24,043 nucleotides of DNA, from positions 1 to 24,043 of IMG/VR virus record IMGVR_UViG_3300045973_000546; one strand, given 5' to 3'. The DNA comes from a virus. The notes beneath the pieces were generated by a model that saw nothing but the letters and a program-made list of their open reading frames with translations, made no database searches and was not told the origin of the DNA. This document shows positions 6,049 to 23,321 of this stretch, piece by piece. The translations under genes and the position numbers were made by a program. Position 1 is the first letter of the stretch. Each line of letters opens with the position of its first letter.

Positions 6049-6963
6049 ATGGCTTACATCAGTAGACGGCAACTAGAATTCCTGGGCGAGCCCATTGGCA
6101 ACATGTCCGGTGTTGGCGTGGACGGCCGCGCCATTTATCACGGTGGCGGAAAGGGCGACTCGCCACCAGCCCCCGATTACACGCCGATGGCGAATGCTTC
6201 TGAAGAATCGGCGCGCATCGGCGCAGAACTTGGCCGAGAGCAACTGGCTGAGAATAAGCGGCAGTTTGAGGTAAATCAAACGACGCTGAAGCCGGTTATC
6301 GATCAATCGATCGAGACGCAGCGTATTTCCAACGAGCAAGGCGTCAAGAATTATGAGACGTTCCAGGCCGAAGGTCGCCCCATCCAGCAGCGCCTTGCAA
6401 GTATTGCTCTGGGAGGCGACTACACCGACGCACAAAAAGCAAAGCAGGAAGAAGCGGCCGGCACGGCAATTTCCGATGCGCGCGCCGGAACAAGCCAGCA
6501 AATGAACCAGCTGATCCGCCAGGGATTGCGCATGGGATGGAGCCCGGCGAAGTTGGCTTCAATGGGCGGCCAGGCGGCCACAATGGGCGCACAGAGCCAG
6601 GTTTCTGCGGCAAATTTGGCTCGAACCGGCGTGCAGGGTAAGCAGCTGGCCCAGATGGGCGATGCGTACAACACCTATTCCGGCCTCGGATCTTCTGCAC
6701 CGACGTTCTACAACTCGGGCACAGGCGCGGCGCAGGCGGCCAGCGGTACGCAACTTGGCGTATCTGGCCAGTACATGGGCGGAATGGCGCAGGGCAACGG
6801 AACGATCATGCAAGGGCAGCAGGCGCGCATCAGTGGCCTCGGCTCAATCCTGAGCAGTCAGACCGGCATATACGATTCGCAGATGGCGGCGAACTCATCT
6901 TCGGCCTCCGGGACAATGGGACTGATTGGTGCCGGCATCGGTGCAGCAGCGACGATCTACTAA
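6049..6963 (+). CDS. Internal virion / DNA-ejection protein (gp14-slot)
   Basis: A 304-residue protein rich in Ala, Gly, Gln and Ser. Residues about 55-110 form a helical, charged region (SARIGAELGREQLAENKRQF), followed by many Met/Gln-Gly segments and a C-terminal small-residue hydrophobic segment near residues 288-304 (GTMGLIGAGIGAAATIY). This is the usual makeup of podoviral proteins packed inside the head and ejected through the tail to form a conduit. The position, first of three such genes after the nozzle, matches T7 gene 14. The correspondence is positional and compositional, not proven homology. The stop overlaps the next ATG by one base. Confidence 0.7.
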   Translation: MAYISRRQLEFLGEPIGNMSGVGVDGRAIYHGGGKGDSPPAPDYTPMANASEESARIGAELGREQLAENKRQFEVNQTTLKPVIDQSIETQRISNEQGVKNYETFQAEGRPIQQRLASIALGGDYTDAQKAKQEEAAGTAISDARAGTSQQMNQLIRQGLRMGWSPAKLASMGGQAATMGAQSQVSAANLARTGVQGKQLAQMGDAYNTYSGLGSSAPTFYNSGTGAAQAASGTQLGVSGQYMGGMAQGNGTIMQGQQARISGLGSILSSQTGIYDSQMAANSSSASGTMGLIGAGIGAAATIY

Positions 6964-7685
6964 TGAGCGACTACGACGATATCTTTTCCCGCCATGATCG
7001 GGTGGCAATTCAAGTTTCTGGCGGCAAGGATTCGCTTGCTGCTTTGTACTTGCTGCGTCCATATTGGGATCGGCTGGTCGTCTATTGGCTTAATCCTGGA
7101 AATCCGTTTCCAGAGACGTATGAGGTAATTGACCGTGTTGCTTCGATGGTTCCGCATTTCAAAGAGGTACGAGGTCGCCAGCGCGAAATAATCAAGGAAG
7201 GCGGCTGGCCTTCTGATGTTGTACCAATTCGTTGGACAAGTTTCGGCCAGTTTGGCCTTGGCGAAAAGGCGTTCAAAGTGCAGGGGCGTTTTGATTGCTG
7301 CTGGCGCTCTCTGATGCTCCCCATGCACGAAGCCATGCTTGAAGATGGAATTACCTGCGTAATTCGAGGAAAGCGCAGCGACGAGGTTGATAAATCGCCA
7401 TCCAGATCAGGCGACGTGATCGACGGCATCGAATTCGTCTATCCGCTGTGGGATTGGTCGGCCGGTGATGTGCATACGTTCCTGAGAGATAACGGCGTAC
7501 AGCTTCCGGACTATTACCTCTACGTCGACAGTTCGCTCGACTGCATGGATTGCACCGCATGGTGGGAAGACGGTATCGGAAAATTCACCAAAGCAAGGTA
7601 TCCAGCGCTTCATGCGGAGTACGTGAGGCGGATTGGTTTAATCAAGTCGGCAATCGCCGACGAATTGACACGAATCGAGGACTGA
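6963..7685 (+). CDS. APS/PAPS-reductase-like PP-loop protein
   Basis: A 240-residue member of the adenine-nucleotide alpha-hydrolase/PAPS reductase superfamily. The PP-loop SGGKDS is at residues 19-24, where such enzymes bind the adenylate pyrophosphate or phosphate. Cysteines C112-C113 and C194-x-x-C197 reproduce the CC-(about 80)-CxxC spacing used to hold a 4Fe-4S cluster in APS reductases. A basic GKRSDE segment follows at about 136-141. Known relatives reduce APS/PAPS to sulphite or, as in DndC, act in DNA sulphur modification. The gene overlaps the gp14-slot gene by one base and precedes the gp15-slot gene by one base, so it is expressed with virion proteins. Whether it acts in sulphur metabolism or nucleic-acid modification is unknown. 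Confidence 0.85.
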   Translation: MSDYDDIFSRHDRVAIQVSGGKDSLAALYLLRPYWDRLVVYWLNPGNPFPETYEVIDRVASMVPHFKEVRGRQREIIKEGGWPSDVVPIRWTSFGQFGLGEKAFKVQGRFDCCWRSLMLPMHEAMLEDGITCVIRGKRSDEVDKSPSRSGDVIDGIEFVYPLWDWSAGDVHTFLRDNGVQLPDYYLYVDSSLDCMDCTAWWEDGIGKFTKARYPALHAEYVRRIGLIKSAIADELTRIED

Positions 7686-9402: not shown

Positions 9403-12400
9403 ATGGAAAAGTTACTGAGCGACGAAGAAGTATTCGGAAAGCAATCAAATAGCGTAAGACTGCTTTCAGATGATGAGGTTTTCGGTACAGCGAGCAAGCG
9501 CCGGCCAATCGATCAGATCATCAAGGACGAGAGCGATCCAGTAAGAGCCGCCAATGCGGCTAGCGACGCCGGGTACGATTACGCCGAGATAGACAAGGCA
9601 ATCACCGAACGCGAAGAGCGGGCAAAGGCGATGTCAGAGAAGCGCACGGTCGGAAATGTGGCGACGGATCTTGTTGCTCAGCCGATTATCGGTGCTCAGA
9701 AAATGGCAGCGGGTGGAATTCGCTTCGTTGGAGACGTCATTGCCCCTGAGCCAGACAAGCCAATCGACAATTTCCGCGAACAGGGTGGCGTAGCAAATGT
9801 TCGTCAAATCGTCGGGCGCGGGTTAAGCCAGTTCGGCGGGGAGATATACCAAGAGGGCGGAGACATTGAAAAGCAGGTCAATGTTGAAATGCCGAACGCA
9901 ACCCTTCAGGGGTTGTACGGCGGCGCCAAGTCCCTCGCGTTGCAGGCACCAATGCTTGGCGCTCCCGGTGTTGCTGCGCCGCTTGCCTTCATGGGCGGGC
10001 AAGTCGGACTCGATAAATACGCCGAAGCACGTGAAGCGAAATACACCCCAGGTATGTCGGCCGCAATTGGCGCTGGGCATGGCGGTATCGAAGTCGCTAC
10101 CGAATTGCTCCCGACAAAGTTCTTCAAGGAATCCATTGGAAAGGCTGGACTGAAGGAATTCGTTGTTGGCCTATTGGCGCGAGAAGTGCCGGGTGAGCAG
10201 GCGGCCACGCTGGGCCAGGATGCAATCGATCAGGCTGTCGGCCTATCGGGCAAGACAAAGGGCGATTGGGAACAATACTGGCAAGACCGGCCTGCCGCGG
10301 CTTATCAAACCCTTCTCGCCACACTGTCGCAATCCGGACTGCAAACGGCTGGCCATGCCGCATACAAGAAGCTATCAACGATCGGCGAGCCGAAGACCAA
10401 TCAGGATCTGATTGCGCAAGAGCTCTCGGAAAATGTTGCCAGCACCAATTTCTCAGCCGAAGGAATCGCCCAGTCGGCAGTAAATCAACTGAGCCCTGAC
10501 CGTGCGCAGATGCATGCGGCACCGGCCGCGAGTGCTGTTGATCCGACTGCCATGGCGACCACCGGGGATTCTGTAAATCCAGCTGCAAACGCATCTACGC
10601 CGATACCCGAGAATCCACAATCTTCCAGCGACCCGCTTCAGCGACTCGCAGAAATCGAGATTGAATCTTCGCGTCGCGAGCTCACGCCGGCCGAGGTTTC
10701 AGAAGCCAATTCACTTATTGAACAACTTCAAGGAGAAGAGAATGCCGTTACCGAGCTACATGACAATTCCTCAGAAACTCGGGGCGCGACCGAGCCCTCT
10801 GCTGATGTCGCTACTGGCGGGCAAGGGGTGCAAGGGGAAGAAGCCGCCGCCAAAACGGTAAAGCCAGGGGGCGAATGGGCAGAGTTTCCACCCGAGTCCG
10901 GAACACTCGGAATTCCTCGTTCCGAGATGCCGCAGATCAAGGCAGAGCACCGCGGCGCCCTGATCAATTTCATGAACGCTCGAGGCATCACCAGCCAGCA
11001 GGAAGAGGTTCCAGCTGACTCACTAAAGCCAACGCAGGCAGAGTATTCGCCGAAGAAAGTCGAGAAAGCCAAGGGGTTCGAAGGTGGTGATCGGTCGATT
11101 CTTGTTTCGTCGGATAACCATGTTCTCGACGGGCATCACCAGTTGCTCGCGAAGCAAGAAGAAGGGAAGCCGGTAAAAATCATTCGCCTGAATGCACCGA
11201 TCAGCGACCTTGTTCCGCTGGCGCATGAATTCCCAAGCGCCACGACCGCGCCCGGAGCGCCTGGCACACCGCTAAATCAGGGGTTTGTTCCGCTCAATGT
11301 GCCGAGCCTGTCGCCGGCCGCACAGGCGCGGGTATCGGGAATCGATAGCAGGCTTGGTGAAATCCAGGCAGACATGCCGAATCGCACGGCGCCAGTGCGG
11401 GCATCTTTGCAGCGCGAAGCTGCTCAGCTGCTGAGTGAAAAAGAAGTGATTCACGCTCAAGCGGCAGAGGCGGCGCAAGCCAAGCCAAAACAGCCCGCCG
11501 CGCGCCAACCTTCGCCAATCGAGCGCCGCGATGATCTGGTCGGCGCAATCATGCGAGTGACTGGCGGCAATGGTATTGCGGCAAGCCATGCTCAAACCAT
11601 CGTTGGCGATAAGGCGAACGCAGCAACCAAGGTTCGCGGGCTCTTTACCAACAAGGGTACAGCAGACCTTGGCGACACGGCCATGCTGTTGCGTGAACAG
11701 GAAGGCTACGACGTCAAAGACGGCGAGCATCTTTCGGAACTGATCCGCGAACAGGCGGCCGGAAATCCCGTGTACTCGATGGAGCGCATCGAGCGCGATG
11801 CCGCAGCGAATGCAGAAAAGCAGCACAAAGATTCGATCAACCGCCGCGCCGAAGAACTTGGCTTGAAGAAGAGCGGTGGCAAGCGTACTCTTGATGCTGT
11901 CATTGCTGATATTGCCCGCGAAGAAAAGCGCCTATCCGATCTTGAGTCAGATGCCGAGCGCGAGGCAATTCAGGCTGCCGACATCGCAGATAGTATTTAT
12001 CAAGAAGAATCTGATCTAACTGAAGCCGATTTGATGCAATGGCTTGGTGATCGTGTCGAATATTCACAGGACGAAATCAATGAAGCCAATACCCGATCAT
12101 CTAAAATCAAAAGTAGAAGATCTGAAGCTCGATCTATTGAAATATCCGATGAGCAAGCGCAAGGAGATCATCGAGAAGGGGATGGCGATCGCTCGTCAGC
12201 GACAATTGGTAGCCAATCTAAAGAAGGAGCGCGAGGAAATCTCGAAGACCAGTCCGCCACAGGGCAGCGGAGCAAAGATGATCAAGGCAATCAAGGAAGC
12301 AACAAAGGCGATCAGCAAGACCGTGTAACCGAGGACGGTCCAAAGCCGCAGTATCAGGCGGGCGATCGCATTGTTCCGGGAAAAGATGTATTCGATGGCG

Positions 12401-15400
12401 ACATCGTAAAGACCAAGAATGGCAAGCTGTGGATGGCGCGCGTCAAGCGCGGGGACACAATCCCAGTTGTTCCGTTTGAAAACGGGAAGCCAGTTGTATC
12501 GGCAGATACACGCAAGACCTTCAGCCTGCTATCGCAGGAAGTCACGCACACCGGTGAAAACTATTACGGGCATGGCGGCCAGCCGAAGCCAGGGCTAACA
12601 CTTACCGGCCAAACAGCCGCAGAAATCCGGCAACAGGAACAGGATCGAGTCGCTGCTGCCGCAGAGGCTGCGCGTCAGGAAACGCAAGACGCTGCCGACA
12701 AGAAGGCGGCTGAAAAGAAATCACTCGAAGATGCCATCAAGGCCCGAGCTGCGAACCCTGACAACTTCCAGTTTGGCGAAGATGCGAAAGCTGCAGCGAA
12801 GCCGATGGGTAATCTGTTTGATCAGCCTAGCGCCAATGCGCAAGTAGCTAAATCAAACGCCAAAGAACCCCCACCAAAATACGGAATTTACCAACTACCT
12901 GATGGATCGTTCGCAAAGTTCGATAGGGTTTGGTATCGCGGAGAAAAAACAGAGCGCGCTGCAATGCTCTCTGAAATGGTTATCCCAGGAAACGCTGCGC
13001 CAAAAGATAGGCTAGATAGCCAATCATGGGTATTTACCAAGGGGTTTTCCCGCAATGAATACGATGGTAGTCCATTGCGTCTTACCAAGAATGGCGAGGA
13101 TGCTGCGGTCGACGCCAGCAATGAGCGAGAAACAGCGGATCGACCAAGCGCCGAACCTGTAACGGAGCCGGAGAAATCCGAGTCCAGTACCCCATCAGAA
13201 ATGGACTCGCTCAAAGCAGAGATGGGCGATGCCATTGGAGAACTAGCTTCTATCCTTGGTGTGAAGATGAATCTCACACCGGAAGAGGAAAGCAAGATCA
13301 TTCCGGTGATGTCGAAGATTTTCCGCATCGCCGCAAAGATGGGTTACATCAAGTTTGCTGATGCAGCGAAGTATGTCATGCAGCAGATTCGCACTATGGC
13401 CGGGACAATCGTTGCCGACAAGATCAGCATCGAGAATCTTCAGGCCGGTTACATAAATGTTTCCAAGGAGATCGGCGGCGACAAACGCGAAGCCATGTCC
13501 TATGATTCAATTGAAGACTTGGAGAAATCAGAAAATGTCACTGACGAGCGTAGCAGCACCGATCTGGAACGAGATAGCCAAGACGCAGAAGCTGCGGACG
13601 CCGTGGGCGAAGATGGCGTTCGCGCTGGACGGGATGGCGATGGCGGAACTGGAAGACAAGGAGTGGAAGGAGCTGAAGCTGAAAGTGGACAGCGAGGTAG
13701 CGAGCGCAGTAGTGAAGATGAAGCCGCTACTGCTGGAGAACATAGCGATCAGCAAATATACACAGGCGCACCCGAACTATCGCCAGGCTCTGCCGGAAGT
13801 CGTGTCGATATCGGAAGCAGTAATGATAGCCTCGATGGATTACCCATTGAATCAGACGCAGCAGCAGCAGTTGAAAAAACTGCTACAAGCAGAGTTCAAA
13901 AAGAACGGGATCAACTAGCCCAGCAAAAGTCCGACAACAAGCCGCAAGGCGAAGGACTAGCCGCTGTTCGTGCTGCGCTTCCTATCCTCACCGAAGGGCA
14001 GCAAGACGACGTATTCAAGACTGAAACGCGCTTCGCTGTTCCTGACGGTTACGGCATGCTTTTCACCAACGGCACAGGAACTGGTAAAACATTCTCTGGT
14101 CTTGGCGTCATTAAGCGCATGGGCAATCAGGGAAAGAACAATATCCTGATCGTCGCGCCTAGCGATGAAATCATCAATGCTTGGCAGAAGGCCGGCAAGT
14201 TGCTTGGCCTTGAGCTTACCCGCCTTGCTGATACCAACGACGCCGGAACGGGTATCACCATCACGACCTACGCCAACATGGGCGCCAACAATGCGCTGGC
14301 AACACGCGACTGGGATATGGTCGTCCATGACGAAGCGCACTACCTGGCGATGGATAAGGACGGCACCAGCACCAATGCACTGAAGAACCTGCGGGCGATC
14401 ACGTTGCATCCGGATGGCGTGTTTCAGCGTCACAACATGATCAATGCGGCCGACATCCAGCGTCTGGCCGAGCTGGACGCGAGCGCCAAATCAGACCGTA
14501 TGTCTGACTTTGATGTTCAATGGCAGCGTGCCGAGGTTACGCAGAAAGAAGCCGACAAGCTGCGCAACGAACTGAAGGTCAAGCAAGACGCCATCAAGCA
14601 AGACGTAGCAGATCGCCAGGGCGCCAACCGCACCCGCGCGTTGTTCCTATCTGCAACACCGTTCGCCTACGAGAAAACAATCGACTGGGCCAATGGCTAC
14701 ATCTTCGACTACAACGAGGGCCAGGCCAGCGAAGATCGCGAGTTCAGGGGTTACAACTCCGGCAGCAACAAAGACCGTTTCTTCATGCAGCACTTCGGCT
14801 ACCGCATGCGGACGGGCAAGCTGACGCAGCCAGATGCTAAGGTCGATAGCGGTTTGATGCAGCGCCAGTTCAACGCCTGGCTGAAGAAGAAAGGATCGTT
14901 GTCTGGCCGCATGCTCGATGTCGCAGCCGACTATGACCGCAAGTTCATCCTGGTTGATTCGGCTATTGGACAGCGTATTGACGAGGCGCTGCAGTGGTTT
15001 GAGGTGAAACGCAAGGCGCAGCACTCCGGCACAGGTGAGATGGGCGAAAGAGCCGGCGCCATCATGGCGAAGGCTGACCCATACGTTGATGCGCTGAACG
15101 CTGTGCGCGACCAGATCGCAGAGAAGTTCGATTACCTGTCGCGCCGCTACCTGCTCGAATCGATCAAGGCCCGCGAAGTGGTTCCGCATATCCGCGAACA
15201 CATGGCGATAGGGCGCAAGATTGTTGTGTTCCACGACTACAAGAAGGGCGGCGGATTCAACCCGTTCATTCTTGACGAGCGTTCAGTGAAATCTCAAGAG
15301 GCGATAGACGCCACAGTGTCGGCCGAGCAGTGGAATCGTGTTGTCCGCGAGTTCAATGCTGAGTTCAAAGACATCATCAATTCAGACCTGTTCAGACAGT

Positions 15401-18400
15401 CGTCTCCGATTGATATGTTCAAGCAGGAATTCCCAGGCGTGCTGCTGTTCAATGGCGACGTGCCGGCCAAGACGCGCTGCGACAATGTTGCCAAGTTCCA
15501 GGACGACGCCAGCGGTCCGCAGATCATCCTTGTTCAATCTGCTGCAGGCAAGGAAGGCATCAGCCTGCATGACACCACAGGAAAGCACCAGCGCGTTCTA
15601 TTCAACCTTGGACAGCCAACTCAGCCGACTACCGCTATCCAGCAGGAAGGCCGTATCTACCGAACCGGCCAGGTGACTGACGCAATGTTCCGCTACTTGA
15701 ACACGGGCACCAACTGGGAGAAATGGGCTTTCGCAACAACCATCGCCCAGCGTGCCAGCACAGCAGAAAACCTAGGCATGGGCGAAATGGCTCGCGCCTT
15801 GAAAGATGCGTTCGTCTCAGGATTTGAAGAATCTGGCGACTATCGCGCCGGGATGGCAGGCGAGGGCAAGGGTGGCAAGGAACGCGACAAGGCCGCGAAC
15901 GACGCGCTGACCGAATACGACCGCGCTCGCGCTTTCTACTTCGGCACGCAGAAAAAGAACAGCAAGACCAAGGCGCAGGAAGGTGCTGACTACTTTGCAA
16001 CGCCTGAACCTGTCGGATTGAAGATGGTTGAATGGGCTGACGTTCGCCCAGGTGAGCGCGTGCTTGAGCCGTCAGCCGGCCATGGCGCTATTGCTCGCTG
16101 GTTCCCTGACACAGCAGACAAGACGGCAATCGAGCCAAGCATGGCGCTACGCTCGCGCCTGGCGATGGTGTTCAACGGAACGATGATCGACACCGACTTC
16201 GAGTCGATGAATGTCGTCAATAAGTTCGACGCCATCGTGATGAATCCACCGTTCGGCTCTGGCGGGAAGATGGCCGTTGAACACTTGGCAAAGGCCGCTA
16301 CGCACTTGCGTGATGGTGGCCGCATTGTGGCCCTGATTCCTACGGGACCGGCTGCTGACAAGAAGTTCGACAAGTGGATGTATGGCGAGGAAGAGCGAGC
16401 CATCAAGCCACTTTTCGACCATCCTGTTCTTGGTCCTATCTACCGCGGCGATACCGTTAATACGCGCGCAAGCTGGATGAAGGAAGGCGTCATTGTTCGC
16501 CGTGACAAAGACGGTCATTTGTGGATGAAGCGCGAAGGCGTGCCGGGTGAATCAATGGTTGCCACGGAGTCATTCACCAGCGTCAAGCCGACAGGCAAGC
16601 GCACCGAGATGGTCAAGACGGCACCCAGCCTGAACATGGTTGCCGACATCAAGATGCCGTCAGTCACGTTCGAGCGAGCCGGCACGCAGGTAATGACGCG
16701 CATTGTTGTGATCGAGAAACAGACTGCTGCGGACAAGGTGATTGATACCCGTGGCGTCTATAACAAAGACTTCACCGGTGAAGACGACATCAATGCGCTG
16801 TTCAACCGCATGGAAAACATGGCGTTGCCTGGCCGCTTGAAAGAGCGCACTGAGGAAGAAGTGCCGGCGACGAAAACGCAGAAGGTGGAAAATCCAGCAC
16901 CGTCAGCAGTTGGCGATGTGGTCACAATCGAAGGGGCAGAGTACCCGATTGAAATCTACGTCACGAACGACGGAAAGGAAAAGCGCGGCATCTGGATGGC
17001 AGAGAGGCTGGCCAAGGCGCTTAATCCGCGTGCGTTTAAGACAGCGAAGAACAACGGTACGCCGAATCAAGGCAAGTTCTTTGTCGATGAATACTGGCTG
17101 AAGAAGAACGGCCCGGCAGTGCTATCAGCTGCGCCGTTTTCGCGCGGGGAAGACTTCACACCAATCAGCCTTGACGTTGCTGCCGGCGTTGTCCAGCGCG
17201 TCCGCGCCATCGCGGAGAAAGAGTGGAAAGTCGATATTCGCCTCGTCCCGACCTTTGATTCGCTTCCGGACGATACGAAACAGGCAATAGCCAAGTATGG
17301 TGAGGACACCAAGGCCAAGGGCGTACTGCACAAAGGGGTTATTTATCTGGTTGCTGATGAACATGAGTCAGAAGCCGATTTGGAAACCACTATTCTGCAT
17401 GAAGCCAAGGGGCATGTGGGGATTCGTCGATTGTATGGAGCAGAGGCAGAGAAAAAACTGAATGCCTTGTTCGATGCTATCGGCGGCGCGCCGGGCCTGG
17501 CCAACATTGCCAAGCGCCGCGGATTCACTGAAGAAATGCAGGGCTATGCGCTGTCGCTCAAGGATTCGGATTTCTCGAATGGTGAGCGGACACGGATCAT
17601 CATGGAGGAATTGCTTTCCCACATCGCCCAAGAGCCAAAATTCACGGACAAGGTGAAGGCCGTTGTTGGTGCGGTTCGCGCATGGCTTCGAGATAACGGT
17701 TTCATGAGCCTGTCAAGCTACGGAGAAACCGACCTTCTTAAAATCCTCAGTGATGCCAGCAAATCGCTAAGCGTTATCCGATCCGAAGACGGCCTAGCCG
17801 TCCTGATGGCGTCGTCCCGCATTTCGGCAACCGCCAACAATGCTTATCAGCAAGGGAAGCAGAAGGTTGCGGATCTAACGAGTCCGGAATCAATCAACAC
17901 CCTGGTCTATAACTTCCAGAACAAGTACGTCGACCTGAAGAACATGCAGGACCGAATCAAGGCGATAGGCGGCACGCTGACCGATCTGAATGATGCCTAT
18001 CTCGGTGAAGAGATGTATCACGGCAAGGTGATGAAGAAGACCGCGGATTTCCTCGACGAAGAGATTCATCCGTTGCTTCGCCAGCTGTTCAACAATGGAA
18101 TCAAGAAGGAAGATTTCGAGCAGTATTTGCATGCCAGGCATGCGCCGGAGCGTAATGCGGCTATGGCTTTGCGCAATCCGAATCAGGCGATGATTGATGC
18201 CGGCCAGACAAAGGCGGATGCGGATCTGAAATCGTTACATCTGCAGTTGCAAAATGCTCAGGCGCATGGCTTGGCTACCAAGGCGATTGATAATTCTATC
18301 GAGAAAGCTAAGGCAGAGCGTGCGCAATGGCATGGCGCTCAGGCATTCAAAGGCACCGAGGACGAGCGCAACTCGCTTTCCGGTATGAGCGATGCGGCGG

Positions 18401-20619
18401 CAGCGCAGATCATGTCTGCCGTGAGGCCCGGCCACCGTCATGCAATGGATTCTGCCGCAGCTAAGGTAGATGCCATCAATGCCAAGTCGCTTGATCTCCA
18501 ATTGAATTCAGGCTTGATTGACCGGGCAACCTACAACGCGATCAAGAGCGCCTATAAATTCTATGTGCCATTGCATCGTGACGAGGCGCACCCAGATAGT
18601 GCCAGCCATCCGATAGGGCAGGGCTTCAGCGTTAAGGGCAGCGGCATCAAACGGGCGACCGGTTCAAACGAGACGGTGACAAACATTCTCGGCCACGTTG
18701 CCATGAATCGCGAGGCGCAGATCACGCGCTCTGAAAAGAATAGCGTCTCGAAGCGGCTCTATTTGCTGGCTTCGCAGAATCCGGACAAAGACTTTTGGAG
18801 CGTTGGCCGGCCGCCGACGATCAAGACCATTGACCCGCGCACTGGCTTTGTCCGTTCGCAGGTTGATCCAAACTATGCCAGCAAACCGAATGTGCTGGTC
18901 GTTCGCATTGCCGGCAAGGATGCGGCCATTGTATTCAATGAACACAACCAAGAGGCCGTGCGCCTGGCTGGTGCATTGAAAAACCTTGATGGGCAGGATC
19001 TTGATGTTGTCGAGCGCACGATAGGTAAGGCAACACGGTGGTTTGCTGCGGTCAACACGCAGTACAACCCTATTTTTGGCATCGTCAATTTGATGCGCGA
19101 CTCCCAAGAGGGAATCATCAACCTGACAACGACGGAAATCGGAAACAAGAAATGGGATGTTGCGAAAACCATTCCGTCTGCGATGCGCGCGATTTACCAA
19201 ATCGAGCGGGGTGGTATCGCTAGCAATCAGCGGATGGGTGATCTGTGGAAGGAGTTCCAAAGCGTAGGCGGGGAAACTGGCTATCGTGATCTATACGCCT
19301 CACCAGAGGATCGCGTGAAGGCGCTGGAGAAGGAGCTGAAATCGTTTGAGCGAGGAAGTATCAGCAAGCGGGCGCATGCCGTTGCTGAATGGCTTTCCGA
19401 CTACAACACGACGATGGAGAACGCGGTTCGTCTTTCGGCCTACAAGGTGTCCATTGAAAACGGATTGAGCAAAGAGCGCGCAGCCAGCCTGGCAAAGAAC
19501 CTCACAGTGAATTTCAATCGCAAGGGAGCAAAAGCGGCAAAGCTCGGCGCGCTCTACGCATTCTTCAATGCGTCCGCCCAGGGCACGGCCCGGGTAGCAC
19601 AAACTATGCGCGGCCCAGCCGGAACGAAAATACTGATTGGCGGCGTCGCGATTGGCATTCTTCAGCAGGCGCTCGGCATGATGATTATGGGCGGAAGCGG
19701 AGATGACGACAGCGAATGGGACAAGATTCCTGACTTCATCAAGGAAAATAATCTCATCTTCCCGATTGGCCACGATAAGTTCGTTTCTATTCCTCTTCCG
19801 CTTGGCCTCAAAGTATTACCGAACATTGGCCGCCTGTTTGCAGAGTGGGCAACCGGTGGTGAAGATCGGCCTACCGGGAAGCAGATTGGCAAATTACTGA
19901 GTATTGCCATCGGATCATTTAATCCGCTGGGCGGCAGTGACGTGGTGGACATGGTTTCTCCGACTGTCGCTGACCCGGTAATTTCCTTGCTTCGAAATAA
20001 GGACTGGACGGGCAAGCCGATATACCGCGAGGACATGGCAAGCCTTGATCCAACACCGGGATTCACGCGTACTAAGGATTCGGCAACGCCATGGGCAAAG
20101 GGATCGAGCTACATGATCAACCTGGCAAGCGGGGGGAACGATTATCGTCCTGGACTATGGAGCCCAACTCCGGATCAAATTGACTACGTTATTGGCCAAT
20201 TAACCGGTGGCGTCGGTCGCGAGCTTGGGAAGGCAGTGCAAACCGTATCGTTTCCTTTCACCGGCGATGAACTGCCAGCGCACAAAATTCCGCTTGCTGG
20301 CCGTCTATATGGGACCACTAATGGACCAAGCGGCCAGTCCGAGAAGTTCTACGAGAACATCAAGGAGCTGAACGGTATCCAGCGCGAATTGAAGGGGCGA
20401 ATCAAGGACGACAAGGATGTTACTGAATTTCTTGAAAAAGAGAAGCGCGCCGATCTGATTGGCCTGGGAAATTCAGCAGAGTCCCAAGTGCGGCATCTTC
20501 GCCAGCAGCGCCGGATACTTTCCAAGGAAGGCGACACCGCAGGAGCAAAGGAGATTGACGCATCAATCGCTGCAGTAATGAAGGGGCTCAATATGGAAAT
20601 GCGTCCAGCGAATCGATAG
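9403..20619 (+). CDS. Giant polyvalent ejected protein: ParB-like, helicase, methyltransferase, zincin
   Basis: About 3738 residues counted from ATG 9403. ATG 9391 and TTG 9388 are also in frame, and none has a clear Shine-Dalgarno sequence. In order: twin LLSDEEVFG/LLSDDEVFG motifs (4-28); Gly/Ala-rich region (about 65-330); ParB-like domain with VLDGHHQ (574-580); helical polyvalent domain (706-790); another near 1267-1365; SF2 helicase with GTGTGKT (1557-1563), DEAH (1643-1646), SAT (1750-1752) and QQEGRIYRTGQ (2080-2090); methyltransferase with LEPSAGHG (2221-2228) and NPPF (2281-2284), typical of N6-adenine enzymes; zincin-like HEAKGH (2666-2671); C-terminal polyvalent domain with a hydrophobic segment (3407-3428) and a PLxRFG-like PLAGRLYG (3630-3637). 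This resembles P1 DarB and other polyvalent proteins thought to be ejected to shield entering DNA from restriction. Three linkers carry nested ORFs in another frame. Confidence 0.9.
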   Translation: MEKLLSDEEVFGKQSNSVRLLSDDEVFGTASKRRPIDQIIKDESDPVRAANAASDAGYDYAEIDKAITEREERAKAMSEKRTVGNVATDLVAQPIIGAQKMAAGGIRFVGDVIAPEPDKPIDNFREQGGVANVRQIVGRGLSQFGGEIYQEGGDIEKQVNVEMPNATLQGLYGGAKSLALQAPMLGAPGVAAPLAFMGGQVGLDKYAEAREAKYTPGMSAAIGAGHGGIEVATELLPTKFFKESIGKAGLKEFVVGLLAREVPGEQAATLGQDAIDQAVGLSGKTKGDWEQYWQDRPAAAYQTLLATLSQSGLQTAGHAAYKKLSTIGEPKTNQDLIAQELSENVASTNFSAEGIAQSAVNQLSPDRAQMHAAPAASAVDPTAMATTGDSVNPAANASTPIPENPQSSSDPLQRLAEIEIESSRRELTPAEVSEANSLIEQLQGEENAVTELHDNSSETRGATEPSADVATGGQGVQGEEAAAKTVKPGGEWAEFPPESGTLGIPRSEMPQIKAEHRGALINFMNARGITSQQEEVPADSLKPTQAEYSPKKVEKAKGFEGGDRSILVSSDNHVLDGHHQLLAKQEEGKPVKIIRLNAPISDLVPLAHEFPSATTAPGAPGTPLNQGFVPLNVPSLSPAAQARVSGIDSRLGEIQADMPNRTAPVRASLQREAAQLLSEKEVIHAQAAEAAQAKPKQPAARQPSPIERRDDLVGAIMRVTGGNGIAASHAQTIVGDKANAATKVRGLFTNKGTADLGDTAMLLREQEGYDVKDGEHLSELIREQAAGNPVYSMERIERDAAANAEKQHKDSINRRAEELGLKKSGGKRTLDAVIADIAREEKRLSDLESDAEREAIQAADIADSIYQEESDLTEADLMQWLGDRVEYSQDEINEANTRSSKIKSRRSEARSIEISDEQAQGDHREGDGDRSSATIGSQSKEGARGNLEDQSATGQRSKDDQGNQGSNKGDQQDRVTEDGPKPQYQAGDRIVPGKDVFDGDIVKTKNGKLWMARVKRGDTIPVVPFENGKPVVSADTRKTFSLLSQEVTHTGENYYGHGGQPKPGLTLTGQTAAEIRQQEQDRVAAAAEAARQETQDAADKKAAEKKSLEDAIKARAANPDNFQFGEDAKAAAKPMGNLFDQPSANAQVAKSNAKEPPPKYGIYQLPDGSFAKFDRVWYRGEKTERAAMLSEMVIPGNAAPKDRLDSQSWVFTKGFSRNEYDGSPLRLTKNGEDAAVDASNERETADRPSAEPVTEPEKSESSTPSEMDSLKAEMGDAIGELASILGVKMNLTPEEESKIIPVMSKIFRIAAKMGYIKFADAAKYVMQQIRTMAGTIVADKISIENLQAGYINVSKEIGGDKREAMSYDSIEDLEKSENVTDERSSTDLERDSQDAEAADAVGEDGVRAGRDGDGGTGRQGVEGAEAESGQRGSERSSEDEAATAGEHSDQQIYTGAPELSPGSAGSRVDIGSSNDSLDGLPIESDAAAAVEKTATSRVQKERDQLAQQKSDNKPQGEGLAAVRAALPILTEGQQDDVFKTETRFAVPDGYGMLFTNGTGTGKTFSGLGVIKRMGNQGKNNILIVAPSDEIINAWQKAGKLLGLELTRLADTNDAGTGITITTYANMGANNALATRDWDMVVHDEAHYLAMDKDGTSTNALKNLRAITLHPDGVFQRHNMINAADIQRLAELDASAKSDRMSDFDVQWQRAEVTQKEADKLRNELKVKQDAIKQDVADRQGANRTRALFLSATPFAYEKTIDWANGYIFDYNEGQASEDREFRGYNSGSNKDRFFMQHFGYRMRTGKLTQPDAKVDSGLMQRQFNAWLKKKGSLSGRMLDVAADYDRKFILVDSAIGQRIDEALQWFEVKRKAQHSGTGEMGERAGAIMAKADPYVDALNAVRDQIAEKFDYLSRRYLLESIKAREVVPHIREHMAIGRKIVVFHDYKKGGGFNPFILDERSVKSQEAIDATVSAEQWNRVVREFNAEFKDIINSDLFRQSSPIDMFKQEFPGVLLFNGDVPAKTRCDNVAKFQDDASGPQIILVQSAAGKEGISLHDTTGKHQRVLFNLGQPTQPTTAIQQEGRIYRTGQVTDAMFRYLNTGTNWEKWAFATTIAQRASTAENLGMGEMARALKDAFVSGFEESGDYRAGMAGEGKGGKERDKAANDALTEYDRARAFYFGTQKKNSKTKAQEGADYFATPEPVGLKMVEWADVRPGERVLEPSAGHGAIARWFPDTADKTAIEPSMALRSRLAMVFNGTMIDTDFESMNVVNKFDAIVMNPPFGSGGKMAVEHLAKAATHLRDGGRIVALIPTGPAADKKFDKWMYGEEERAIKPLFDHPVLGPIYRGDTVNTRASWMKEGVIVRRDKDGHLWMKREGVPGESMVATESFTSVKPTGKRTEMVKTAPSLNMVADIKMPSVTFERAGTQVMTRIVVIEKQTAADKVIDTRGVYNKDFTGEDDINALFNRMENMALPGRLKERTEEEVPATKTQKVENPAPSAVGDVVTIEGAEYPIEIYVTNDGKEKRGIWMAERLAKALNPRAFKTAKNNGTPNQGKFFVDEYWLKKNGPAVLSAAPFSRGEDFTPISLDVAAGVVQRVRAIAEKEWKVDIRLVPTFDSLPDDTKQAIAKYGEDTKAKGVLHKGVIYLVADEHESEADLETTILHEAKGHVGIRRLYGAEAEKKLNALFDAIGGAPGLANIAKRRGFTEEMQGYALSLKDSDFSNGERTRIIMEELLSHIAQEPKFTDKVKAVVGAVRAWLRDNGFMSLSSYGETDLLKILSDASKSLSVIRSEDGLAVLMASSRISATANNAYQQGKQKVADLTSPESINTLVYNFQNKYVDLKNMQDRIKAIGGTLTDLNDAYLGEEMYHGKVMKKTADFLDEEIHPLLRQLFNNGIKKEDFEQYLHARHAPERNAAMALRNPNQAMIDAGQTKADADLKSLHLQLQNAQAHGLATKAIDNSIEKAKAERAQWHGAQAFKGTEDERNSLSGMSDAAAAQIMSAVRPGHRHAMDSAAAKVDAINAKSLDLQLNSGLIDRATYNAIKSAYKFYVPLHRDEAHPDSASHPIGQGFSVKGSGIKRATGSNETVTNILGHVAMNREAQITRSEKNSVSKRLYLLASQNPDKDFWSVGRPPTIKTIDPRTGFVRSQVDPNYASKPNVLVVRIAGKDAAIVFNEHNQEAVRLAGALKNLDGQDLDVVERTIGKATRWFAAVNTQYNPIFGIVNLMRDSQEGIINLTTTEIGNKKWDVAKTIPSAMRAIYQIERGGIASNQRMGDLWKEFQSVGGETGYRDLYASPEDRVKALEKELKSFERGSISKRAHAVAEWLSDYNTTMENAVRLSAYKVSIENGLSKERAASLAKNLTVNFNRKGAKAAKLGALYAFFNASAQGTARVAQTMRGPAGTKILIGGVAIGILQQALGMMIMGGSGDDDSEWDKIPDFIKENNLIFPIGHDKFVSIPLPLGLKVLPNIGRLFAEWATGGEDRPTGKQIGKLLSIAIGSFNPLGGSDVVDMVSPTVADPVISLLRNKDWTGKPIYREDMASLDPTPGFTRTKDSATPWAKGSSYMINLASGGNDYRPGLWSPTPDQIDYVIGQLTGGVGRELGKAVQTVSFPFTGDELPAHKIPLAGRLYGTTNGPSGQSEKFYENIKELNGIQRELKGRIKDDKDVTEFLEKEKRADLIGLGNSAESQVRHLRQQRRILSKEGDTAGAKEIDASIAAVMKGLNMEMRPANR
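10742..10861 (+). CDS. Nested small ORF 1 inside the giant gene (+1 frame)
   Basis: A 39-residue candidate starting MPLPSYMTIPQKLGARPS and ending in a basic KGKKPPPKR tail. It has an ideal AAGGAG at 10730-10735 with a six-base spacer to ATG 10742. In the giant frame the same DNA encodes a low-complexity linker (about residues 447-486) just before the ParB-like domain. By hand count, about 29 of 39 third positions are G/C in the nested frame against about 21 of 40 in the giant frame. It is short, so chance is a real alternative. No family is recognised. Confidence 0.4.
   Translation: MPLPSYMTIPQKLGARPSPLLMSLLAGKGCKGKKPPPKR
12080..12328 (+). CDS. Nested small ORF 2 inside the giant gene (+1 frame)
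   Basis: An 82-residue candidate starting MKPIPDHLKSKVEDLKLDLL, strongly helical and charged, with a Lys-rich C-terminus (MIKAIKEATKAISKTV). AGGA at 12068-12071 lies eight bases before ATG 12080; an upstream GTG at 12044 is also in frame. The giant frame across this DNA (about residues 893-975) is an Asp/Gly/Gln/Ser-rich linker with no fold-like pattern. Hand count of G/C at third positions gives about 51 of 82 in the nested frame but about 28 of 83 in the giant frame, against about 51 of 80 in a sample of the helicase domain. That contrast favours the nested frame as the better-adapted coding frame. The function is unknown, and the alternative is a formerly independent gene now read only as a linker. 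Confidence 0.5.
   Translation: MKPIPDHLKSKVEDLKLDLLKYPMSKRKEIIEKGMAIARQRQLVANLKKEREEISKTSPPQGSGAKMIKAIKEATKAISKTV
13535..13918 (+). CDS. Nested small ORF 3 inside the giant gene (+1 frame)
   Basis: A 127-residue candidate starting MSLTSVAAPIWNEIAKTQKL. It reads like a folded helical protein: ELEDKEWKELKLKVDSEVAS, then MKPLLLENIAISKY, then ALPEVVSISEAVMIASMDYP, with a Gln/Lys-rich end. GGAG at 13521-13524 lies ten bases before ATG 13535. The giant frame here (about residues 1378-1505) is a Gly/Asp/Glu/Ser-rich low-complexity linker directly before the helicase. By hand count, about 94 of 127 third positions are G/C in the nested frame against about 43 of 128 in the giant frame. No family was recognised. 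It may be a true overlapping gene, or a captured gene whose frame is no longer translated separately. Confidence 0.55.
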   Translation: MSLTSVAAPIWNEIAKTQKLRTPWAKMAFALDGMAMAELEDKEWKELKLKVDSEVASAVVKMKPLLLENIAISKYTQAHPNYRQALPEVVSISEAVMIASMDYPLNQTQQQQLKKLLQAEFKKNGIN

Positions 20620-20773: not shown

Positions 20774-22015
20774 CTAATCCGTAGTTACTGCTTCGCCATC
20801 ACCTTCCGCTGCCGCCTTGGCGACCAGCGCGTCAATCCAGTCCGCCCAAGCCTGCATCATCTCCCGGCGCTCTGGTATGTATTCTGCATGGTTATAGGCC
20901 GCCTTAACTTGGTTTCGCTCAGCATGGGCCAATTGCTTTTCAATGATGTCGCTTCGCCAGCCCAGTTCATGCAACTGGGTAGAGGCGGTCGTCCGGAAGC
21001 CGTGCCCGCTGAACTGACCTAGATAACCCATGCGCTCAAGAACGCGATTTATAGTGGTGCTGGTCATACACGTTCCTGAAGTCCGCAGGTTCGGGAACAG
21101 GAACTTGCGGTTGCCGGAAATCATGTGCAACTCGCGCAGCAGCGCAACAGCCTGCCGGGACAGCGGGACAATATGGACCTCGCCCGGCAGCATGTGTTTT
21201 GCCATCTTCATTCTGATCGCCGGGATGCGCCACTCAGCCGCATCCAGATCAAACTCGACCCACTCGGCGAGTCGTAGCTCTTTCGTTCGAATGAACGTCA
21301 GAAGCATCAATCGGACAGCAATTTTCGTCCCCAAATATCCCCCATAAGCATCCAGCTTTATCAGGAACTTCGGTATCTCGTCTTGCGACAGCGGCGGGTT
21401 ATGCCGTACCGGCTTTCGCTTCAGCGCGCCGGCCAGCGACGTAGCCGGATCGAATTCGGCTTTCTGGTTCGGGATCGCCCAGCGGAAAATCTGACTCGAC
21501 CATTGCCGGATCAGGACCGCGATTGTCCCGGCCCCTCGCTTCTCGACCTTGCGGATGATCTCCAACAGGTGCGCCGCCTTGACGGTTCGGATTGGGAAAG
21601 CCCCGATGGTCGGGAAAACGTCCTTGGTCAAATTGTCATCGACCTGCTTCGCGTAGGTTGCAGACCAATGCGCCTTGTTGTCGACGATCCACTCGCGGGC
21701 GACTGACTCGAAAGTGTTGGTGTTCTCATCGATCACGCCCAGGCGCTCGGCCTTCTTCGAACTGGTTGGGTTCAGCCCCTGCTTGACCTGATCCCGCGCC
21801 CACTCGCGTGCCTTGCGAGCATCGGACAGCGAGACGGCCGGATATTCACCGATGGTGTAAATGCCGTCCTTGCCGTCTGGCTTCCAGTAGCGGTACCGCC
21901 AGAACTTTGCCCCGGACGGCCGGACCTCAAGAAAAAGCCCCTGGCCATCCTGCAGCTTGTAGGGTTTCTCTGTGGGCTTGGAATTACGGAGCTTTGTGTC
22001 TGTGAGGGATGCCAT
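20774..22015 (-). CDS. int: Prophage tyrosine integrase (P4-type)
   Basis: A 413-residue tyrosine recombinase of the P4-like type with an N-terminal DUF4102-style arm-binding domain (LTDTKLRNSKPTEKPYKLQD, then GQGLFLEVRPSGAKFWRYRY). A core-binding domain spans about 100-190 and the catalytic domain about 205-390. Catalytic residues are visible: R243 (in FIRTKELRLAEW), H338-x-x-R341 (HGFR), H364 (QLAHAERN) and Y374 (AAYNHAEY). The enzyme cuts and rejoins attP and attB, leaving the phage integrated. It is convergent with the late operon, with no clear terminator in the roughly 30-base gap. No Shine-Dalgarno sequence precedes the ATG. Instead a perfect inverted repeat abuts it, suggesting repression or att-related binding at its own start. 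Length and motifs are complete, so it should be active. Confidence 0.95.
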   Translation of the reverse strand: MASLTDTKLRNSKPTEKPYKLQDGQGLFLEVRPSGAKFWRYRYWKPDGKDGIYTIGEYPAVSLSDARKAREWARDQVKQGLNPTSSKKAERLGVIDENTNTFESVAREWIVDNKAHWSATYAKQVDDNLTKDVFPTIGAFPIRTVKAAHLLEIIRKVEKRGAGTIAVLIRQWSSQIFRWAIPNQKAEFDPATSLAGALKRKPVRHNPPLSQDEIPKFLIKLDAYGGYLGTKIAVRLMLLTFIRTKELRLAEWVEFDLDAAEWRIPAIRMKMAKHMLPGEVHIVPLSRQAVALLRELHMISGNRKFLFPNLRTSGTCMTSTTINRVLERMGYLGQFSGHGFRTTASTQLHELGWRSDIIEKQLAHAERNQVKAAYNHAEYIPERREMMQAWADWIDALVAKAAAEGDGEAVTTD

Positions 22016-22310: not shown

Positions 22311-23321
22311 ATGAACGCAGCGCACGCCATGCCCCCGCACCGTCTTTCCATCGTCGTTCCTGTTTACAACGAGGAAGACAATGTCGCACCGCTCGTCAAA
22401 CGCGTGCATGAAGCGCTGGAAGGCTATGAAAACCCCTGGGAGCTGGTGCTGGTGGATGATGGCAGCAGCGACGGCACGGTGGATCGTGGCTTGCTCGCCG
22501 CCAAGGAGTACGGCCCGCACGTCCGCATCGTTGAACTGACGCGCAATTTCAAGCAAACGGCCGCCATGCAGGCCGGCATTGATGCGGCACGCGGCGATGT
22601 CATCGTCACCATGGATGGTGATTTGCAAAATGACCCTATCGACATTCCGCGCATGGTCGCCCGACTGCTTAATGAAAATCTCGATCTGGTCGCCGGCTGG
22701 CGGCAAAACCGGCAGGATGGCCTGTTCCTGCGCAAGATTCCCTCGAAAATTGCTAACAAGCTGATCGCCCGTATGACCGGTGTGCATCTGCGCGACTACG
22801 GCTGCAGCTTGAAGGCCTTCCGTGGCAGTGTGATCAAGAGCGTGCGCCTGTACGGCGAAATGCACCGCTTCATCCCGGCCTGGCTGGCCACCGTGACGAC
22901 ACCACGGCGTATCGCGCAGGAACCGACGACGCACCACGCGCGCACGGCTGGCGTTTCCAAATACGGGATTTCGCGCACCTTCCGCGTCATTCTCGATTTG
23001 ATTGCGGTGTACTTCTTCATGCGCTTCCGCGCCCGGCCTGGCCATTTTTTCGGCGGCATCGGTCTGTTTCTGACGGCGATTTCCCTGCTCGATCTGAGCT
23101 GGCTGGCCTGGGTGAAGTTCGGGCTCGGCGAATCAATCGGTGGTCGTCCGGCCCTGATTGTCGGCATCGGCGGCCTGATCGCCGGGGTGCATTTCATCAC
23201 CACCGGTGTGCTCTCGGAAATCATGGCGCGCATTTACTTTGAATCCGGCACCGTGCGTTCCTACGCCGCCCGTCCAGAAACACAGCTGGCGGCCGACCAA
23301 GGTTGGCACGCGCCACAGTGA
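22311..23321 (+). CDS. GT2 polyprenyl-phosphate glycosyltransferase (DPM1/ArnC-like)
   Basis: A 336-residue family 2 glycosyltransferase that probably transfers a sugar from a nucleotide donor to a polyprenyl phosphate on the cytoplasmic face of the inner membrane. Landmarks are the opening strand LSIVVPVYNEEDN, DDGSSDGT (49-56), the metal- and donor-binding DGDLQNDP (102-109), and two C-terminal membrane segments (about 245-267 and 278-302), the layout of ArnC/GtrB-type enzymes. The ATG at 22311 is taken, but ATG 22329 (MPPHRL) is equally plausible since neither has a strong Shine-Dalgarno sequence. Its stop overlaps the next gene's GTG by four bases, so the pair is an operon. This is bacterial chromosome, not phage. 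The sugar is unknown. Confidence 0.85.
   Translation: MNAAHAMPPHRLSIVVPVYNEEDNVAPLVKRVHEALEGYENPWELVLVDDGSSDGTVDRGLLAAKEYGPHVRIVELTRNFKQTAAMQAGIDAARGDVIVTMDGDLQNDPIDIPRMVARLLNENLDLVAGWRQNRQDGLFLRKIPSKIANKLIARMTGVHLRDYGCSLKAFRGSVIKSVRLYGEMHRFIPAWLATVTTPRRIAQEPTTHHARTAGVSKYGISRTFRVILDLIAVYFFMRFRARPGHFFGGIGLFLTAISLLDLSWLAWVKFGLGESIGGRPALIVGIGGLIAGVHFITTGVLSEIMARIYFESGTVRSYAARPETQLAADQGWHAPQ

Follow-up and report, generated by a model that had tools for sequence, protein, structure and literature searches.

Can small ORFs that lie out of frame inside a giant phage gene be genuine genes, and if so, did the giant gene grow around them or did they arise within it? This question is raised by the window analyzed here, the whole stretch of 24,043 nucleotides of a virus record (IMGVR_UViG_3300045973_000546), in which a giant ORF, unbroken along its entire length, harbors three smaller ORFs denoted N1, N2, and N3 (Table 1). 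The giant protein yields domain matches to ResIII, Helicase_C, the Strawberry-notch C domain, and MTS, with the helicase adjoining an adenine methyltransferase. Judging by these matches, it is a polyvalent protein of the DarB/PLxRFG type but not DarB proper, because LPD36 was not matched at E 0.1 and because the domain order is helicase followed by methyltransferase; in DarB, LPD36 is described as preceding the methyltransferase and the helicase as following it (PMC5512222). Upstream of the giant gene lie internal virion and tail genes, and the genes immediately 5' of it include one for a phosphoadenosine phosphosulfate reductase-like protein (6963-7685; phrog_424, E 4e-28). A minus-strand integrase gene (phrog_1) adjoins a GtrB-like O-antigen conversion gene (positions 20774-22015 and 22311-23321 of the window), and because of this adjacency, the virus is probably temperate.

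Table 1. Features of the giant gene and of the ORFs nested in it (positions in the window)
Feature	Coordinates	Strand	Remarks
Giant host gene	9403..20619	+	3738 aa, predicted polyvalent protein, DarB/PLxRFG-like: helicase, adenine methyltransferase, LPD38
N1, nested ORF	10742..10861	+	+1 phase, 39 aa, ATG at 10742, Shine-Dalgarno AAGGAG
Giant-protein domain in the N1-N2 interval	10867..11259	+	ParB-like according to the first-pass annotation; separate gene in the split relative L044, 74% identity
N2, probable nested gene	12080..12328	+	+1 phase, 82 aa, ATG at 12080, lysine-rich
Ribosome-binding region 5' of the N3 ATG	13515..13534	+	ttggagaaatcagaaa
N3, nested gene	13535..13918	+	+1 phase, 127 aa, ATG at 13535, conserved family, predicted orphan helical fold
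Giant-protein domain, SF2/Strawberry-notch-type helicase	14053..15762	+	immediately 3' of N3
Giant-protein domain, adenine methyltransferase	15949..16389	+	NPPF motif
Giant-protein domain, LPD38 (PF18857)	19708..20295	+	E 1.4e-44

As the first-pass annotation of this DNA had pointed out, the three nested ORFs share one phase, +1 relative to the giant frame, and are located at boundaries between domains of the giant protein; the N3 ORF is open from 13457, upstream of its start codon. The accompanying observation that they coincide with low-complexity stretches of the giant protein also holds: hydrophobic residues make up 10%, 6%, and 12% of the giant protein over N1, N2, and N3, respectively, compared with 26% for the whole protein, and the overlaps with N2 and N3 are the two 80-aa regions in which it is least hydrophobic. 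The length of an ORF alone is no evidence in this case because long +1 ORFs are common, with about 0.9 ORFs of at least 119 codons per giant gene in addition to N3. When a codon statistic was slid along the whole gene, the +1 frame scored higher than the giant frame only at 12103-12282, within N2, and at 13543-13902, within N3, whereas the two frames nearly tied at N1 (10663-10932). Another +1 ORF (15338-15676), previously dismissed as junk-like and used here as a control, is non-coding in +1 by the same statistic. These codon statistics, together with the stops that would be expected in the giant frame (P of an open frame over N2 is 0.004) and a modest Shine-Dalgarno sequence, suggest that N2 is probably a real gene; no homologues of N2 were found in phages, in viral contigs, or among the 81 giant genes described below. 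N1, for which no homologues were found either, could be a chance by-product, with a P of 0.36 for an open giant frame and tied codon scores, despite its good Shine-Dalgarno sequence.

N3 is far more widespread. Using tblastn, we identified it in six distinct isolated phages, at 28-42% identity and with hosts in Klebsiella, Ruegeria, Serratia, Pseudomonas, and Vibrio, in each case within a giant CDS, in the same phase, and without an annotation of its own; scans of viral contigs yielded more homologues, and in two plasmids, the N3 homologue is likewise in +1. To avoid selection for N3, loci were retrieved with a helicase-domain alignment that contained no N3 sequence. In all of the best 80 loci selected in this manner (80/80), N3 has a homologue that shares its phase, is enclosed in an open giant frame, and in most cases ends about 100 bases 5' of the helicase core. 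A more distant helicase-selected set, partly overlapping the first, contains N3 in 68 of 80 loci, that is, 67 scored directly and one, L122, in which the giant frame is broken and N3 is still nested. The working set consisted of 81 distinct N3 sequences forming 76 clusters at 90% identity, and in all 81 distinct loci, N3 is a complete +1 ORF inside an open giant frame. None of the records found in the collections searched carries an annotation of N3, probably because gene callers reject full overlaps.

The surroundings of N3 vary among the relatives. In L112, L116, and L076, N3 and the helicase core are separated by about 1026, 468, and 315 bases, respectively, compared with the usual distance of about 100, and further segments seem to have been inserted between them with the giant frame kept open. 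A family of nested +1 ORFs lies directly upstream of N3, about 160 bases before it, in L086, L090, L096, L102, and L104, and a second family of small nested +1 ORFs lies 270-690 bases before N3 in L112, L114, and L116; these two families 5' of N3 resemble a row of hidden genes.

The constraint on the two overlapping frames was assessed over the entire working set. A Shine-Dalgarno sequence of at least 4 nt precedes the N3 start in 72 of the 81 homologues compared with 21% of control +1 ATGs. The codon score of the nested frame exceeds that of the giant frame in 65 of the 81 loci (in the other 16, the giant frame equals or surpasses it), as against 0.2% of 2132 control windows. At the same time, the giant frame over N3 contains no stop codon in any of the 81 loci, whereas silent recoding of N3 predicts 4.6 stops on average. 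Across 40 pairs of relatives, with some loci entering twice, substitutions over N3 at nested codon positions 1, 2, and 3 number 978, 839, and 1663; most changes fall at the third position of N3 codons, and the slowest position is the wobble position of the giant frame. This is the reverse of the helicase control, in which the counts for giant-frame positions 1, 2, and 3 are 3896, 2947, and 8247. In close pairs, the N3 product retains a mean identity of 75% over the overlap, compared with 57% for the giant-frame peptide. For an alignment of 70 N3 homologues, AlphaFold2 predicts an all-helical structure with high confidence (pLDDT 92.5, pTM 0.84), for which no known family or fold was found in Pfam, PHROGs, PDB (by sequence or by fold), or BFVD. 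By these comparative criteria, N3 is a conserved protein-coding gene nested in a host frame that is kept open. Judging from the inverted substitution pattern, the higher identity of the nested product, and the codon score, selection acts on the N3 product, and the lack of stops in 81 loci indicates that the host frame is under selection to stay open as well; both frames are presumably translated.

N3 is accompanied by numerous other nested ORFs. In the 81 giant genes, another 63 nested ORFs with 35 codons or more appear more coding than the giant frame, all in +1 and falling into small families, whereas no such ORFs were obtained when synonymous codons were permuted in five rounds of 81 genes (405 trials). 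Two of them, at L050:3662-4231 and L074:2645-3130, encode complete HNH endonucleases (phrog_3377); the match in L050 covers residues 1-187 of 190 (E 4.2e-52). Relatives of the nested HNH genes are present in 927 phage records and, among the matches listed, are annotated as HNH endonucleases, AP2-domain proteins, or hypothetical proteins. The chance of an open giant frame over these two genes is 1.3% and 1.9%. Because the family of small HNH genes clearly came first, it is the giant frame that appears to have been opened through the captured gene; judged from sequence, capture of whole pre-existing genes out of frame thus occurs in this gene family, in two relatives. A precise HNH insertion was sought by comparison of L074 with L077, and the result was not clean, with L077 carrying an ordinary segment of similar length at the site.

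The first-pass annotation had proposed that the giant gene was built by stepwise fusion of separate domain genes, with the small genes between them becoming linkers read in a shifted frame, and had called for a search for split versions. Such versions exist: the N-terminal (ParB-like) and helicase parts are separate genes in L011/L054 and in L044. In L011/L054, other genes intervene after the separate N-terminal part, and N3 is still nested in the helicase gene. In L044, the order is tight, namely, the N-terminal gene, a ferritin-like gene (L044:4523-5008; PF00210, E 1.4e-14) whose stop codon overlaps the next start (TGATG), and the helicase gene. In the plasmid L200, a short helicase CDS begins just 5' of N3, which is nested in +1. 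No split relative shows a homologue of N1, N2, or N3 as an independent gene between domains, and the small junction genes of split relatives (ferritin in L044, a coiled coil protein in L113), examined as candidates, are not homologous to nested ORFs elsewhere. In 12 loci from the more distant scan, the helicase and methyltransferase form a free-standing gene of about 860 codons, with no N3 nearby; therefore N3 goes with the fused kind. Free-standing helicase-methyltransferase genes were seen in AT-rich viral contigs (L126, L131, L132, L137, L140, L156, and others).

Among all phage, plasmid, and viral-contig matches, N3 is nested. The sole, anomalous exception is L037:115-895, from a Desulfamplus MAG contig, where an N3 copy (432-812, 53% identity) accompanied by a short piece of giant frame with one stop is flanked by CRISPR-like repeats of 35 nt (at 115, 180, and 861); this copy could have arisen by capture of phage DNA or through misassembly, and a search of 395 genomes of the same phylum returned only L037 again. 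In L122 (3440-4080), the upstream giant frame and the helicase frame are mutually shifted just after N3, which could mean that the gene is truly split, with its parts overlapping, or that the sequence contains an error. The idea of a free-standing N3 ahead of this helicase was rejected, given that the upstream giant frame crosses N3 and the break comes after it. The fusion proposal thus stands in part: N3 and probably N2 appear to be genes that serve as linkers, and HNH genes have been captured, but N3 stays nested even in split versions, and N1, N2, and N3 are not independent genes at the junctions. Of the two outcomes that had been named as counting against fusion, small proteins that are never independent are largely what we observe for N3, whereas linker codon statistics no different from those of other linkers are clearly not what we observe.

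Four readings of these data have to be weighed. The nested ORFs might owe their existence to composition and chance, and their conservation solely to that of the giant protein. This would fit the abundance of long +1 ORFs but is hardly credible: over the overlap, the nested product is more conserved than that of the giant frame, the substitution pattern is inverted, the codon signature did not appear in any permutation trial, Shine-Dalgarno sequences are enriched at N3 starts, and the N3 family alignment yields a confident fold. For N3, this reading is rejected on the codon score, the permutation, and the substitution pattern. It is also very unlikely that the giant frame is untranslated across N3, such that the helicase and upstream parts would be separate proteins, N3 an ordinary gene between them, and the open frame accidental. 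The poor conservation of the giant-frame peptide over N3, the existence of split relatives, and the discontinuous upstream and helicase frames in L122 are compatible with this possibility, but the giant frame is open in every one of the 81 loci, although the median probability of an open frame by chance is 1.3% per locus, and giant-frame ATGs are scarce just after N3, with none near the N3 stop. A separate helicase start after N3 is rejected for lack of a giant-frame ATG there.

The other two readings accept N3 as a gene and differ in its origin. Under the first, giants engulf whole neighboring or mobile genes in a shifted frame. Such a gene would keep working as silent substitutions purge the giant frame of stops, and its out-of-frame translation would come to serve as a linker between two domains; N3 would then be the earliest gene taken up in this way, retained by every fused member. 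Capture, as opposed to birth in the linker, is inferred as the origin of N3, and we consider this scenario quite possible but hold it only tentatively. If true, it would represent overprinting in reverse, many times over, and always in the one phase reachable by silent changes. Most viral overlapping genes are thought to arise de novo by overprinting, and under the second reading, N3 and N2 are real genes that were born in this way within a pre-existing disordered linker, the giant frame being ancestral, without any capture. N3 is seen only nested (apart from the odd copy in L037) and has no homologue by profile or fold, its restricted distribution and orphan fold are as expected of an overprinted gene, N2 has no relatives, and +1 is given as the usual phase of nested de novo viral genes in a review (PMC8227390). 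Against this stand the codon usage, which in 65 of the 81 loci looks more native when the nested frame is read, as would be expected of the older frame (de novo genes of great age come to share this usage as well); the lower conservation of the giant-frame peptide (57% vs 75% identity in close pairs); and the HNH cases, which indicate that capture happens in this gene family. Birth by overprinting is therefore a possibility to be taken seriously, if a rather doubtful one.

Why the nested genes are always in +1 can be explained in part. When the nested gene is in +1, a giant-frame stop consists of a nested codon ending in T followed by a codon starting with AA, AG, or GA, and a change of T to C at the third codon position is always silent. 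In the real sequence, all giant-frame stops in +1 are removable by one silent change in the nested gene, compared with 85% in +2. Nesting in +1 also gives a more hydrophilic giant linker than nesting in +2, a phase in which ORFs are less frequent from the outset. Coupled stop/start overlaps, such as the one joining the ferritin and helicase genes of L044, might conceivably also have set the +1 phase. Silent removability of every giant-frame stop together with a hydrophilic linker is a plausible cause of the +1-only pattern that only partly explains the rule. Among the viral overlaps covered in the review cited above, +1 is also the commoner phase (PMC8227390).

Taken together, these observations make it likely that N3 and, probably, N2 are dual-coded complete genes used as linkers and that the giants of this family grew around such genes. 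N3 and probably N2 would each have a ribosome-binding site, a start, and a stop of their own and would lie, as small but complete genes, in +1 within the linkers of the giant protein. Ribosomes starting at the ATG of the giant gene would read the same DNA in the other frame, producing a hydrophilic, disordered linker, whereas internal starts on the same message would yield the small protein. Selection over the overlap would then act on the frame of the small protein and on the exclusion of stops from the giant frame. The giants of this family may have grown by joining neighboring genes around small genes, and the HNH genes would have entered in this manner in two relatives. N3 might act as a partner of the helicase-methyltransferase part of the injected protein or assist in the assembly of that part, a guess from position, because N3 accompanies this module in every fused giant seen and is located just before it.

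N3 thus represents a conserved phage gene family that is unannotated in the records found. More generally, the linker genes would provide a concrete route to multidomain giants, in which a small gene left inside becomes a linker, and the HNH cases, in which the older frame is known, make an old question on overlapping genes testable. These results suggest that giant phage genes merit a routine search for hidden genes.

Several known systems resemble parts of this arrangement. In phage lambda, Rz1 is encoded within Rz, and the two are small partners of one complex; like Rz1, N3 is a complete gene with its own start, in a shifted frame inside another gene, but unlike Rz1, it lies within the linker region of a giant gene and does not correspond to any known lysis gene. 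Free-standing phage HNH/AP2 endonucleases (phrog_3377) belong to the same family as the nested ORFs in L050 and L074, which differ in lying out of frame in a giant gene whose own frame stays open. The closest relatives of the giant protein itself are polyvalent proteins with the DarB-type methylase-helicase dyad, giant phage proteins whose injection along with the DNA is assumed (Iyer et al. 2017, PMC5512222), which similarly combine a helicase, an adenine methyltransferase, and an LPD domain in one protein. A term search of that article finds no mention of 'overlap' (PMC5512222), and nested genes in polyvalent giants seem undescribed in the open-licence literature, earlier notice elsewhere being possible. 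The nearest parallel in organization is the polymerase/surface overlap of hepatitis B virus, for which Pavesi's modular model holds that a new frame in a gene between two domain genes became the spacer that fuses them (PMC8227390, section 8). As in the giants described here, a gene between domain genes would supply, in a shifted frame, the spacer of one large protein. However, the hepatitis B virus case concerns one overlap, deduced from codon usage, in an animal virus that replicates by reverse transcription, whereas the giants form a family in tailed phages, in which one nested gene is fixed and many others, recognizable HNH genes among them, vary.
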